Part shown: positions 359 to 62,776 of the stretch, piece after piece
Layout of the letters: the number at the start of each line of letters is the position of its first letter
How positions within the stretch are numbered: position 1 is the stretch's first letter
Assembly: GCF_007827465.1 (NCBI RefSeq)
Contig: NZ_VISL01000001.1
Coordinates: 2,866,001-2,930,000 of the forward strand
DNA: 64,000 bases
Direction of reading: 5' to 3'
Source: Dokdonia sp. Hel_I_53
Lineage (GTDB): Bacteria > Bacteroidota > Bacteroidia > Flavobacteriales > Flavobacteriaceae
The notes under the pieces: generated by a model
The model's input: the letters and a program-made list of their open reading frames with translations, nothing else
The model's database searches: none
What the model was told of the DNA's origin: nothing
Position numbers and translations under genes: made by a program

Positions 359-368
359 TTTCGCGAAA
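359..368. repeat. Iterated palindrome copy 1 (TTTCGCGAAA)
   Basis: Core with left CGC flank, intergenic between prmA and clpS, 47 bases upstream of the clpS start. Confidence 0.95.
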
Positions 369-471
369 ATCTCACAGTCCTAAATTAATCATGAAATTTC
401 TGAACAATATAATCGTAGGTTAAAAATCCACTCAGTTTACTGAAAAGACAAAAATGTTTTAATAAATTAAA

Positions 472-1332
472 TTATCTTCTCTCAAACTTACAGGCTACCC
501 AATTATTTCGTTCATAATTACTAACGAAGTAAAGGCCATGTTCATTGCATTTTTCTGAAATTAATGGAATATCTTCTGTGTAAAATCCACTCAATAATAA
601 GATACCATCCTCAGGTAAACATTTCGCGTAAGCGGGAATATCTTGAAGCAAGATGTTGCGATTTATATTTGCGATAATGACGTCATAGTTCTTGTCTTCA
701 AGTAGTTTTACATCACCTTCATAAACATCAATATGTTTACAATTGTTTCTTTCTGCATTTTCTATGCTATTTAAATAACACCAGTTGTCTATGTCTATAG
801 CGTCTATGGGTTTGGCTTCACGCATTTCAGCTAGAATAGCCAGTACACCTGTGCCGCAACCCATATCTAGTGTTTTTTTATCTTTTAGATCAAGTTTAAG
901 TAGATGCTTAATCATCATATGAGTAGTCTCGTGATGACCAGTCCCAAAAGACATTTTTGGTTCTATTACGATATCGTACAACACATCAGTTTTGTCATGA
1001 AAGGGAGCTCTTACCGCGCATTTACCATCTACCTCTATAGGTTCAAAATTCTTTTCCCACTCTTCATTCCAGTTTACTTGTTCAATTTCTTCTGCTACAT
1101 AAGTAATCGTAAACTCATCAGAATTCATAATTTGAATATCGGTAAGTAGTGAATCATAGTCTACATCCTGAGAATTAGGAAAAGCTTCATCTTTTTGAAT
1201 GTAAGCAATTACTCCTGCTTCATTTTCAGTAAAACTTTCAAAGCCTGCGTAGCCTAGTTCTGCAATTAGTATTTCGGTTGCAGGATCTCGGGGTTCAATA
1301 GTAAAGGTGTAGCCTAAATAAATTGGAGTCAT
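472..1332 (-). CDS. prmA: Ribosomal protein L11 methyltransferase
   Basis: PrmA trimethylates ribosomal protein L11 using S-adenosylmethionine. The 286-residue product is of normal length for the family. The class I methyltransferase core is visible: the pre-motif PKMSFGTGHHETT at about residues 125-138, motif I LDMGCGTGVLAI at about 155-166, and the catalytic-loop motif NINRNIL near residue 222. The N-terminal L11-binding domain is shorter than in Proteobacteria, as usual in Bacteroidota. It lies between tpiA and clpS on the same strand; a hairpin separates it from tpiA. Confidence 0.95.
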   Translation of the reverse strand: MTPIYLGYTFTIEPRDPATEILIAELGYAGFESFTENEAGVIAYIQKDEAFPNSQDVDYDSLLTDIQIMNSDEFTITYVAEEIEQVNWNEEWEKNFEPIEVDGKCAVRAPFHDKTDVLYDIVIEPKMSFGTGHHETTHMMIKHLLKLDLKDKKTLDMGCGTGVLAILAEMREAKPIDAIDIDNWCYLNSIENAERNNCKHIDVYEGDVKLLEDKNYDVIIANINRNILLQDIPAYAKCLPEDGILLLSGFYTEDIPLISEKCNEHGLYFVSNYERNNWVACKFERR

Positions 1333-1386
1333 TTTATCCTATTTAAAAATTTTGTGAGTGCAAAAATAAGGTTTATAAAACTACAA

Positions 1387-1426
1387 ATCCTCTATGCTGC
1401 ACAATAGCGAGCAGTGCATAGAGGAT
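1387..1426 (-). terminator. Hairpin downstream of tpiA
   Basis: ATCCTCTATGC and GCATAGAGGAT form an 11-bp stem, with an inner CTGC/GCAG pair. On the minus strand it follows the tpiA stop by about 33 bases and leads into a T-rich stretch. It probably terminates tpiA ahead of prmA. Confidence 0.7.
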
Positions 1427-1458
1427 TAATATAAAATTCTATTTTTATAATAAATGGC

Positions 1459-2214
1459 CTATTGCTGAAAGGCATTAACAATCTCAAAAAAGTCTGTAGC
1501 ATTTAGTGCAGCGCCACCTATAAGTCCACCGTCTACATCTTTTTTGTTAAAAATTTCTTTTGCGTTAGTAGGTTTTACAGAACCTCCATATAAGATACTC
1601 ACTCCATCTGCGACTTCTTGCCCGTATGTTGAAGCGATAGTGTTGCGAATAAATTGGTGCATCTCTTGTGCCTGCTCAGGTGAAGCTGTTTCTCCAGTAC
1701 CTATAGCCCAAACAGGTTCATAAGCAAGTATTATGTTTGACCATGCATCTTTATCTAGATGAAATAATGCATTTTCAAGCTGAGTTGCTACCACGTCTTC
1801 ATGTTTCTCATCCTTACGATCTTGCAGTTCTTCTCCAAAACAAAAAATGATTCTCAATTCATTTTTTAGTGCACTATTTACTTTTTTTGCTAGCAATTCG
1901 TCTGTTTCATGAAAATATGCGCGTCGCTCACTATGACCCAAGATAACGGTGTTTATACCTATTCCCTTAAGCATCTTTGCAGAGATTTCACCTGTGAATG
2001 CACCACTTTCTTCTTGGTGCATATTTTGTGCAGCAACTTTGATGTTGCTATCACTTAGACTTTCAAATGCTTTATATAGATTCACAAATGTAGGTGCAAT
2101 AATAACCTCTGCATCTCCTAAGTTTCTTTCTTTCTTTAGATTCGTAATAAGTCCTGCGGTATCTGCTAGGTCATTATTCATTTTCCAGTTTCCTGCTACA
2201 ATATGTTTTCTCAT
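1459..2214 (-). CDS. tpiA: Triosephosphate isomerase
   Basis: This enzyme interconverts dihydroxyacetone phosphate and glyceraldehyde 3-phosphate in glycolysis and gluconeogenesis. The 251-residue product is full length and shows all signatures: GNWKMN at residues 8-13 (substrate Lys), ILGHSERR near 92 (catalytic His), AYEPVWAIGTG near 165 (catalytic Glu) and LYGGSVKP near 210 (phosphate loop). It is the middle gene of a same-strand series with the ABC permease upstream and prmA downstream, but 230 bases of intergenic DNA precede it and a hairpin follows, so it may be its own transcript. Confidence 0.97.
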   Translation of the reverse strand: MRKHIVAGNWKMNNDLADTAGLITNLKKERNLGDAEVIIAPTFVNLYKAFESLSDSNIKVAAQNMHQEESGAFTGEISAKMLKGIGINTVILGHSERRAYFHETDELLAKKVNSALKNELRIIFCFGEELQDRKDEKHEDVVATQLENALFHLDKDAWSNIILAYEPVWAIGTGETASPEQAQEMHQFIRNTIASTYGQEVADGVSILYGGSVKPTNAKEIFNKKDVDGGLIGGAALNATDFFEIVNAFQQ

Positions 2215-2387
2215 AATATATAGTATACCCTTACAAAGAAGGTGTTTAAATTTTTAATTCAACAAATTCACGATCTGTTCTCAAATATAGCAACCTGTTT
2301 GTTAGTTCAACTTGGATTTAACCCAATTTTCACGATTATAAAGTTTACAGTTTCTAAGTATGAAAATGTGGTTGATAGATATAAGTT

Positions 2388-60596: not shown

Positions 60597-60626
60597 TTGT
60601 CAGGATAAATTTAAGTTGTATATTTG
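60597..60626 (+). promoter_or_regulatory. rRNA promoter P3
   Basis: TTG at 60597-60599, 19-base spacer, TATATTTG at 60619-60626; followed by CACCCGCTTAG, close to the ndk promoter's start region. Confidence 0.8.
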
Positions 60627-60902
60627 CACCCGCTTAGAAAAACAGTAGTTAGCTAGGCGAAGTTCAGGAGTATTTTTAGAGAATGTTATGGTATAAAAGA
60701 AAGGTTCGATTCCTTTGCATTTAACAAAGAGTTTTTTGGTTTTGTTTTGAATAGAAATAGGATTAAAAAAAGTTCATTGATTTATTGAATTGACAGCGCG
60801 TATTAATACTTTCGGGTATTATTACAAAGAATTTGAAAACTAGAAGTTTATTATTGACCGGATATTTCTGTATTGTGAGTAGTTTAATATTATTAAAAAC
60901 AC

Positions 60903-62426
60903 ACGATGAAGAGTTTGATCCTGGCTCAGGATGAACGCTAGCGGCAGGCTTAACACATGCAAGTCGAGGGGTAACATAAAGTGCTTGCACTTTGATGACG
61001 ACCGGCGCACGGGTGCGTAACGCGTATAGAATCTACCTTATACTGGGGAATAGCCTTTGGAAACGAAGATTAATACCCCATAGTAAGTATTTATGGCATC
61101 ATTTATACTTTAAAGTTTCGGCGGTATAAGATGACTATGCGTTCTATTAGTTTGTTGGTAAGGTAACGGCTTACCAAGACTACGATAGATAGGGGTCCTG
61201 AGAGGGAGATCCCCCACACTGGTACTGAGACACGGACCAGACTCCTACGGGAGGCAGCAGTGAGGAATATTGGACAATGGAGGCAACTCTGATCCAGCCA
61301 TGCCGCGTGTAGGAAGACTGCCCTATGGGTTGTAAACTACTTTTATATGGGAAGAATAAGGTATATGTATATACTGATGACGGTACCATAAGAATAAGCA
61401 CCGGCTAACTCCGTGCCAGCAGCCGCGGTAATACGGAGGGTGCAAGCGTTATCCGGAATCATTGGGTTTAAAGGGTCCGTAGGCGGGCTTGTAAGTCAGT
61501 GGTGAAAGTCTGTGGCTCAACCATAGAATTGCCATTGATACTGCAGGTCTTGAATTATTGTGAAGTGGTTAGAATATGTAGTGTAGCGGTGAAATGCTTA
61601 GAGATTACATAGAATACCGATTGCGAAGGCAGATCACTAACAATATATTGACGCTGATGGACGAAAGCGTAGGTAGCGAACAGGATTAGATACCCTGGTA
61701 GTCTACGCCGTAAACGATGGATACTAGTTGTTTGGCTTTCGGGCTGAGTGACTAAGCGAAAGTGATAAGTATCCCACCTGGGGAGTACGTTCGCAAGAAT
61801 GAAACTCAAAGGAATTGACGGGGGCCCGCACAAGCGGTGGAGCATGTGGTTTAATTCGATGATACGCGAGGAACCTTACCAGGGCTTAAATGTAGTCTGA
61901 CAGGGCCAGAGATGGCTTTTTCTTCGGACAGATTACAAGGTGCTGCATGGTTGTCGTCAGCTCGTGCCGTGAGGTGTCAGGTTAAGTCCTATAACGAGCG
62001 CAACCCCTGTGGTTAGTTGCCAGCGAGTAATGTCGGGAACTCTAGCCAGACTGCCGGTGCAAACCGTGAGGAAGGTGGGGATGACGTCAAATCATCACGG
62101 CCCTTACGTCCTGGGCCACACACGTGCTACAATGGTAGGGACAGAGAGCAGCCACTGGGCGACCAGGAGCGAATCTATAAACCCTATCTCAGTTCGGATT
62201 GGAGTCTGCAACTCGACTCCATGAAGCTGGAATCGCTAGTAATCGGATATCAGCCATGATCCGGTGAATACGTTCCCGGGCCTTGTACACACCGCCCGTC
62301 AAGCCATGGAAGCTGGGGGTACCTGAAGTCCGTTACCGCAAGGAGCGGCCTAGGGTAAAACTGGTAACTGGGGCTAAGTCGTAACAAGGTAGCCGTACCG
62401 GAAGGTGCGGCTGGAACACCTCCTTT
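60903..62426 (+). rRNA. rrs: 16S ribosomal RNA
   Basis: Complete small-subunit rRNA of about 1524 bases. Universal sites are readable: AGAGTTTGATCCTGGCTCAG near 60911, CTCCTACGGGAGGCAGCAG near 61240, CAGCAGCCGCGGTAATAC near 61418, AACTCAAAGGAATTGACGG near 61803, and TTGTACACACCGCCCGTC near 62283. The 3' end reads GGCTGGAACACCTCCTTT, the flavobacterial form, and keeps the anti-Shine-Dalgarno CCTCC. Ends are set by alignment to E. coli and could be off by a few bases. Confidence 0.97.
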
Positions 62427-62637
62427 CTAGAGCTTGTCCCTGCACTTGTGCTTACTAATTTATTAGTAAAACATCAAGAGTATACAGCAAAGCGACTTAC
62501 GATACTGAAAGGTCAGTAATAGGTTTTAGTTTTCAATAGCTGTCGATTTAATTATAATTTAATAAGTACATAGTAGTTTTACTTTAGTAATTAGTTTTTA
62601 CTAGTAACTATTGTTTATTGACTATAGACTTATAGAC

Positions 62638-62711
62638 AGTCTCATAGCTCAGCTGGTTAGAGCGCTACACTGATAATGTAGAGGTCGGCAGTTCGAGTCT
62701 GCCTGAGACTA
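62638..62711 (+). tRNA. tRNA-Ile (anticodon GAT)
   Basis: Full cloverleaf in the 16S-23S spacer: acceptor AGTCTCA/TGAGACT, D-arm GCTC/GAGC, anticodon stem CTACA/TGTAG with loop CTGATAA, T-arm GGCAG/CTGCC with TTCGAGT. CCA is not encoded. Confidence 0.96.
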
Positions 62712-62762
62712 CTGGTCAATGACCAGACATATTTTCAGGAGTATGTTTGATTATTGAATACC

Positions 62763-62776
62763 GCTTTCGCGAAAGC
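62763..62776. repeat. Iterated palindrome copy 21
   Basis: Fourteen-base palindrome inside the rRNA operon, between tRNA-Ile and tRNA-Ala. Confidence 0.95.

Follow-up and report, generated by a model that had tools for sequence, protein, structure and literature searches.

The DNA considered here, referred to as the window, is a 64-kb stretch of the 2.93-Mb, single-contig genome of Dokdonia sp. Hel_I_53 (G000), which a preliminary description of the same DNA had correctly placed in the Flavobacteriaceae. Along with protein-coding open reading frames (ORFs), among them one for a thiamine pyrophosphate (TPP) enzyme that is presumably MenD, and a 16S-23S rRNA spacer, the window holds a highly iterated palindrome. 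Its 10-mer core, TTTCGCGAAA, occurs 21 times in exact form (359-62774), compared with a mean of 0.04 and a maximum of 2 in 100 dinucleotide shuffles. The longer forms are a 14-mer, GCTTTCGCGAAAGC, and a 16-mer, CGCTTTCGCGAAAGCG; the latter is exact at 10 of the 21 copies, and the 21 exact cores claimed in the preliminary description, which the count bears out, refer to the 10-mer. Markov models of orders 1-3 predict 0.07-0.1 copies of TTTCGCGAAA in the window, in agreement with the earlier estimate of about 0.1, and order 4 predicts 0.6; models of orders 5-6 already incorporate the motif. Gaps between the copies range from 1173 to 6009 bp (described earlier as 1.2-6 kb), and the copies lie within genes, between genes and in the rRNA spacer, as had been stated.

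The element is real, strong and genome-wide. TTTCGCGAAA occurs 832 times in Hel_I_53 (13 for the reversed pattern), or about once per 3.5 kb, close to the thousand or so sites guessed beforehand, and the 14-mer and 16-mer occur 700 and 452 times, respectively. In the first 464 kb of this genome that were read, 125 copies were found against 0.5-2.6 expected (Markov orders 1-4), making TTTCGCGAAA the commonest 10-base palindrome there by a six-fold lead over the next, with 21. The preliminary description had held that a genome-wide count near expectation, or enrichment limited to the window, would speak against it; the count lies far above expectation, and the enrichment spans the genome.

Table 1. 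Copies of the palindrome in the 64-kb window
Copy	Position	Form	Location	Conservation and remarks
1	356..371	One-armed, CGCTTTCGCGAAAATC
2	2388..2403	Full 16-mer	Intergenic
3	6638..6653	One-armed, right arm GCA
4	9512..9527	Full 16-mer
5	15065..15080	TGC...GCG
6	17022..17037	Full 16-mer
7	18877..18892	Full 16-mer	Intergenic
8	24774..24789	TGC...GCA		No copy found at the corresponding place in L021 or L022
9	25947..25962	One-armed, CGA...GCG		Core kept in L021 and L022
10	28027..28042	Full 16-mer		Core kept in L021
11	30210..30225	CGC...GCA		Core kept in L021
12	36219..36234	Full 16-mer
13	38994..39009	Full 16-mer
14	40307..40322	One-armed
15	42154..42169	AGC...GCG	Intergenic
16	48010..48025	Full 16-mer	Between two convergent ORFs
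17	50085..50100	TGC...GCA	Within ORF 49712-50845, upstream of the presumed MenD ORF	Core kept in 10/10 other Dokdonia loci and in G190
18	52497..52512	CGC...GCA	Within ORF 50878-52614 (TPP enzyme, presumably MenD)	Encodes AFAKA
19	53971..53986	Full 16-mer	Intergenic
20	58260..58275	Full 16-mer	About 14 bp after a stop codon	Followed by a separate terminator-like hairpin, 58288-58323, + strand
21	62762..62777	CGC...GCA	16S-23S rRNA spacer, between tRNA-Ile and tRNA-Ala	Core at 62765

Among 299 Flavobacteriaceae genomes, high copy numbers of TTTCGCGAAA are confined to five (559-1107 copies), and none of the remaining 294 exceeds 34. The five fall in three of the 236 genera sampled, namely Dokdonia (g1), g11, which is probably Nonlabens, and g191, represented here by a single genome (G190); genomes with and without the motif at high copy number are referred to as rich and poor. 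The 16-mer is found in all 18 Dokdonia genomes searched, at 138-711 copies each, and the 10-mer in all 23 g11 genomes, at 319-893 copies each. In addition, the closest named relatives by BipA protein, two uncultured Dokdonia (96 and 94% identity), carry four copies in 12.5 kb and six copies in 16.9 kb. Across 395 genomes of the phylum, the 14-mer is present in 22, with 700 copies in Hel_I_53 and no more than six in any other. These stray 14-mers are sometimes clustered: G160 has four in 15.7 kb. Similarly, the 80 kb examined of G287 include a group of four TTTCGCGAAA copies, all two-armed, spanning about 10 kb; such clusters may represent DNA received from a motif-rich donor. In a tree of MenD, a single gene, Dokdonia groups with g191 and the poor genome G144, and g11 lies far off; the trait is therefore either old and often lost or has been transferred between genera. 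A search for decayed copies in 130 kb of G144, a poor near relative, gave five near-matches (at most 4 mismatches) against about three for controls, and thus no clear remnants. Another word, TTTCAGAAA in G101, was considered as a further motif of this kind and rejected, since it is frequent but its flanks are unconserved.

The anatomy of the element was read from 251 cores in 859 kb, or about 29%, of Hel_I_53. For g11, arms, flank composition, spacing and gene position were taken from 280 kb of G315 and base-by-base flank preferences from 600 kb; all g191 figures come from 360 kb of G190. In Hel_I_53, GC arms stand on both sides of 208 cores, on one side of 42 and on neither side of one. Two-armed copies make up 68 of 70 in G315 and 45 of 67 in G190, where 18 are one-armed and four have neither arm. 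The missing arm is near random, rather than altered by a single mutation, with a slight excess of kept G by eye, and single-base variants of the 13-mer cluster at base 1 and base 6. That 42 of the 251 sampled copies carry one arm only suggests an oriented unit that is usually doubled. This unit looks like a 12/13-mer, (C/T)GCTTTCGCGAAA, taken here as the oriented YGCTTTCGCGAAA, and the palindrome would be two such units in overlap. The preliminary description had treated the palindrome itself as the unit. Alternatively, a dimer tolerating one poor half-site would give much the same pattern. The one-armed copies show no clear strand or replichore bias, with 18 on the + strand and 24 on the - strand, and 23 against 19 relative to the leading strand (replichores judged visually from the GC skew), a comparison that rests on these 42 copies, the remainder being symmetric. 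Inverted one-armed pairs, 45-47 bp apart and between genes, were seen at two loci (L014 11899-11959 and L018 11664-11726), recalling paired uptake sequences.

The bias in composition extends well beyond the arms. On the 5' side, C makes up 5-9% of bases at intergenic copies and 8-11% at coding copies over the interval 8-28 bp from the centre, as against 14-18% at greater distances; G is depleted in the same way on the 3' side (the two sides were pooled in the calculation). The 5' flank is GT-rich on each strand, and the footprint, including some 20 bp of biased flank to either side, comes to about 56 bp. The g11 flank is also biased and has base-by-base preferences amounting to 4.3 bits per side, compared with 2.4 in Hel_I_53 and 1.9 in g191 (about 0.5 of which is sampling bias); at coding copies of g191 the depletion is weak. 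A longer hairpin formed by complementary flanks was tried and rejected: pairing between the two flanks equals expectation, so that they lack mutual complementarity.

In Hel_I_53, ORFs contain 125 of the 251 copies, and the other 126 amount to a 7.2-fold excess per base of non-ORF sequence; the corresponding excess is 4.6-fold in g11 and 2.4-fold in g191. ORFs were taken from a simple caller with a minimum of 100 aa, and the intergenic shares may thus be overestimated. Copies within ORFs are most often in the frame encoding A-F-A-K-A (66 of 125). Copies of Hel_I_53 show a preference for gene 3' ends, with 49 of 131 measured distances at or below 25 bp, compared with 3 of 107 for 5' ends. Spacing along the chromosome is regular: the lengths of 119 gaps vary with a coefficient of 0.54, compared with 0.99 for random placement, and two gaps are below 1 kb where 30 are expected. 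A null model that fixes how many copies each stretch holds and how strongly they favour intergenic DNA predicts 38 gaps below 500 bp and 64 below 1000 bp among 210; the observed numbers are six and 13. Similarly, the variance-to-mean ratio of copies per 20 kb is 0.40 (P 0.0001, 43 bins), and every 20-kb stretch read, all round the chromosome, holds 2-8 copies. Within these stretches the copies do not gather in any single region, unlike Noc, parS or matS-type sites.

Conservation was assessed on pairs of aligned sites, after removal of matches above 97% identity or below 150 bp. Between Hel_I_53 and other Dokdonia, 23 of 32 pairs are exactly kept, in flanks that are 63% identical, compared with 7.4% of control 10-mers; these pairs span 11 sites of Hel_I_53, and for nine of the 11 one relative or more has kept the copy. 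The corresponding counts are 13 of 36 pairs (7 of 24 distinct sites of Hel_I_53) for g11, 3 of 7 for g191 and 0 of 111 for the named poor genera, with controls of 2.6, 2.7 and 3.5%, respectively. The g11 and g191 figures are partly an effect of gapped alignment, because the g11 copy in MenD lies two residues from the Dokdonia copy. In an alignment of 30 MenD proteins, the copy lies close to the C terminus, in a stretch of variable sequence, and is present at that place in 6 of 11 Dokdonia and in G190; the remaining sequences differ by substitution, with no gap in the stretch. The copy two residues away, found in five of eight g11 genomes, could have been gained separately or could be the Dokdonia copy displaced by a local shift. 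In the one gene aligned, copies have thus been gained or lost by substitution.

Two cassette-like arrays in Hel_I_53, together 18.8 kb, contain no copies where 5.5 are expected (P 0.004, a value obtained after the fact, because the stretches holding the arrays were noticed for having few copies or an abundance of another repeat). These arrays (L008 7877-19726 and L019 1140-8086, at about 0.908-0.920 and 2.601-2.608 Mb) consist of small genes separated by repeats holding GCAGTGGCC, in the manner of integron cassettes; the genes in L008 encode TIR/8xMP, S41 peptidase, beta-lactamase-fold, AhpC and flavodoxin-like proteins. A cassette-like repeat around TCCTCGCGGA with conserved surroundings was also seen in G287 (L241 and L243), with seven copies in 80 kb. 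Elsewhere, at L005 (3283-7126 and 16607-19999), a pair of genes for an OLD/TOPRIM ATPase and a UvrD helicase, which we take to be Gabija-like, and a gene for a Strawberry-notch helicase lie in the same 20 kb, together with two copies of the motif. Two Nonlabens phages with no annotated integrase have no copies in 71 kb; they count as about one test because they are near relatives (same genus, almost identical gene order), and their use as a host-matched control depends on g11 being Nonlabens. Small contigs of G315 were considered as plasmids, and this was not supported.

A second iterated motif, ATTTCCGAAG, is found in other genera. It occurs eight times in 21.8 kb of a Patiriisocius locus (L099 6890-20064), against 0.03 expected. 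Across the same 299 genomes, counted on both strands, it reaches 605 and 345 copies in two g77 genomes (G076 and G287), 345 in G284 and 238 in G267, where the reversed control gives 14-26. It is low in the TTTCGCGAAA-rich genomes, with 3 copies in Hel_I_53, one each in G010 and G242, 12 in G206 and 11 in G190. ATTTCCGAAG is oriented and non-palindromic, is nearly equal on both strands and, by eye, contains a shared TTTC..CGAA. This suggests that the genera may differ in motif dialect, the copies read with their flanks being 17 from G287 and Patiriisocius and two elsewhere.

We consider CGCTTTCGCGAAAGCG, together with its two biased flanks of about 20 bp each, to be a putative DNA-uptake-type self-recognition sequence, comparable to the DNA uptake sequence (DUS) and uptake signal sequence (USS), and assign this reading a probability of about 0.5. 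Under such a model, a receptor of the flavobacterial competence machinery would bind the 13-mer and its flank on incoming DNA, the palindromic form would permit recognition of a fragment from either end, and uptake and recombination of tagged fragments, through drive, selection for exchange among kin or both, would maintain about one copy per 3.5 kb. The features consistent with this model are the copy number, the clade restriction, the regular spacing, the oriented unit with an optional second arm and the lack of clear replichore bias, as well as the flank tracts, intergenic enrichment, 3'-end proximity in Hel_I_53, conservation and origin by substitution in MenD. Karlin et al., as cited in PMC1939737, reported that uptake sequences, too, are evenly spaced. 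The absence from cassette-like arrays and two phages, the competence genes, ATTTCCGAAG in other genera and the self-preference of R. columbina point in the same direction. Of the three readings left open in the preliminary description, a DNA-uptake sequence is thus favoured, a nucleoid or segregation site remains its main rival, and a palindrome kept by methylation has been weakened. If the uptake model is true, the tag would serve as a substrate with which to look for the receptor in the largely unknown competence machinery of Bacteroidota, and would account for the way in which gene exchange among marine flavobacteria could be directed mainly to kin.

Competence in this group is documented in Riemerella. 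The essential genes there include those for ComEC, DprA, ComF, RecA and four proteins unlike known transformation machinery, two of which are predicted to be surface or outer-membrane proteins (PubMed Central (PMC) identifier PMC8459023). R. columbina favours its own DNA with no known tag, and a k-mer count gave only A/T-rich words, the role of which its authors leave open (PMC7965970). ComEC is present in all 22 rich genomes tested and a DUF5689 homologue of a Riemerella competence gene in all 16; Hel_I_53 has both.

Several observations weigh against an uptake function. The competence genes do not track the motif, since ComEC is also found in 20 of 22 genomes without it, and the DUF5689 homologue in 14 of 14. 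The DUF5689 protein, the one receptor candidate examined, was rejected as specificity determinant, as its tree does not group the rich genomes: G206, G010 and G190 fall among poor genomes, and the poor G144 falls with Dokdonia, with weak support (82/81). In the small samples from the other genera, the preference for 3' ends is not clearly repeated, with 2 of 20 copies in g11 and 3 of 9 in g191 within 25 bp. Among 30 viral contigs found via, and thus selected for, the 16-mer, 11 carry at least two copies, the fullest having seven cores in 27.9 kb, and the two copy-bearing contigs checked have tail or integrase genes; the 5' flank at such viral sites is only mildly C-poor (15%). No report of natural transformation in these genera was found in openly licensed PMC text. 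Finally, all features except the parallel with ATTTCCGAAG also fit an intracellular DNA-binding protein. Separately, the DUF5689 homologues (L301-L330) form two deep types, the distribution of which does not follow genus boundaries, as though they had been exchanged between genera.

In openly licensed PMC text, no description of the motif as a bacterial genome element was found. In three papers its letters appear for other reasons: within an oligonucleotide for circular dichroism (PMC6027432), inside a ThiH expression construct (PMC9046217) and in 12-mers whose absence from the human genome is significant (PMC8034619).

The main rival is a genus-restricted DNA-binding protein, acting in nucleoid structure, chromosome folding or segregation, that would use the copies as regular anchors and bind as a dimer to the palindrome and about 20 bp on each side. 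The two-fold symmetry of most copies, the footprint, the conservation and the even distribution all round the chromosome would be expected of such sites, and copies in phage-like contigs would be compatible with it if these contigs are resident in the chromosome. However, the near-random second arm of the one-armed copies and the occurrence of a different iterated motif in other genera fit it poorly, and we judge it unlikely, if the least so of the alternatives. As an anchor site, the motif would be unusually dense and regular for a bacterial chromosome.

A recombination or translocation signal resembling Chi or the FtsK-orienting polar sequences (KOPS) is improbable. The oriented 13-mer, its density and the GT-rich 5' side on each strand, which could serve as a strand-loading zone, would suit such a signal, with the palindrome making it bidirectional. 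Against this, the one-armed copies are unbiased by strand, the symmetric majority being uninformative here, and we know of no Chi as long as this motif. There is a smaller chance still that the element is a palindrome like the cyanobacterial highly iterated palindrome 1 (HIP1), maintained by a DNA methyltransferase and repair. The internal TCGCGA/CGCG would allow this, and alternate HIPs of cyanobacteria are reported to accompany a specific methyltransferase (PMC4390886). In Hel_I_53, however, neither of the methyltransferase families searched, PF00145 and PF01555, gave a match. Across 29 genomes these two families showed no link to the motif, and a link to either was rejected: PF00145 is found in 10 of 15 rich and 7 of 14 poor genomes, and PF01555 in 7 of 15 rich (0 of 7 Dokdonia) and 6 of 14 poor genomes (two below cut-off). 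The 20-bp biased flanks and regular spacing would also be unexpected for such an element.

That the copies are transcription terminators or RNA elements near gene 3' ends is very improbable. The 3'-end proximity in Hel_I_53 and the inverted one-armed pairs agree with this explanation, as do the six-pair hairpin into which the core folds and a scan that calls the copy at 58260 itself terminator-like on the - strand. Half of the copies, however, are inside ORFs, TTTT follows within 14 nt of the stem at only 7 of 70 3'-end copies, the flanks do not pair, a separate + strand hairpin follows 58260, and the scan of that region finds 9 terminator-like sites where shuffles give 9.1. Dispersed mobile palindromes, such as repetitive extragenic palindromic (REP) or miniature inverted-repeat transposable element (MITE) insertions, would account for high copy number and intergenic enrichment but are scarcely credible, as the MenD copy, in this one gene, varies by substitution with no change in length, and the copies share nothing past the composition of about 56 bp.

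Extending the uptake model to ATTTCCGAAG leads to a more tentative proposal, which we hold to be possible but rather doubtful: that the Flavobacteriaceae own a family of genus-specific tags, TTTCGCGAAA, palindromic, in Dokdonia and two other genera and ATTTCCGAAG, oriented, elsewhere, read by their unusual competence apparatus. Sequence-specific uptake would then have evolved independently in a third major lineage, with one dialect made bidirectional by its palindrome. To our knowledge, the only groups in which DNA uptake has been established as sequence-specific are two families of Proteobacteria, and we know of no earlier DNA-uptake-type sequence in Bacteroidota and no earlier palindromic one.

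Several known systems offer points of comparison. Noc-binding sites, parS and matS have palindromic or symmetric sequences and are recognised by a dimer; the present motif differs from them in its 832 copies and in showing no regional concentration in the stretches read. Chi and KOPS are iterated chromosomal signals read in one orientation, whereas this motif is longer and mostly palindromic, and its one-armed copies lack strand bias. Like HIP1 of cyanobacteria (GCGATCGC), it is a highly iterated palindrome in and outside genes, but it has a different and much longer sequence with biased flanks, in a genome from which PF00145 and PF01555 are absent. The DUS of Neisseriaceae and USS of Pasteurellaceae are oriented and non-palindromic, whereas the motif described here is palindromic in most copies and belongs to the phylum Bacteroidota. 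Unlike that of DUS and USS hosts, the competence apparatus of Flavobacteriaceae includes unrelated proteins (PMC8459023). USS carry AT-rich flanks (PMC7811141), which the flank tracts of the present motif recall, and neisserial DUS are described as conserved, in permissive places and rare in acquired genes (PMC2397512). As to acquired DNA, the present motif is missing from the two cassette-like arrays but occurs in phage-like contigs. With both DUS and USS, the motif shares hundreds of copies, taxon specificity, the lack of strand bias, extragenic enrichment and conservation in permissive places (PMC2346458, PMC3630211, PMC2397512).

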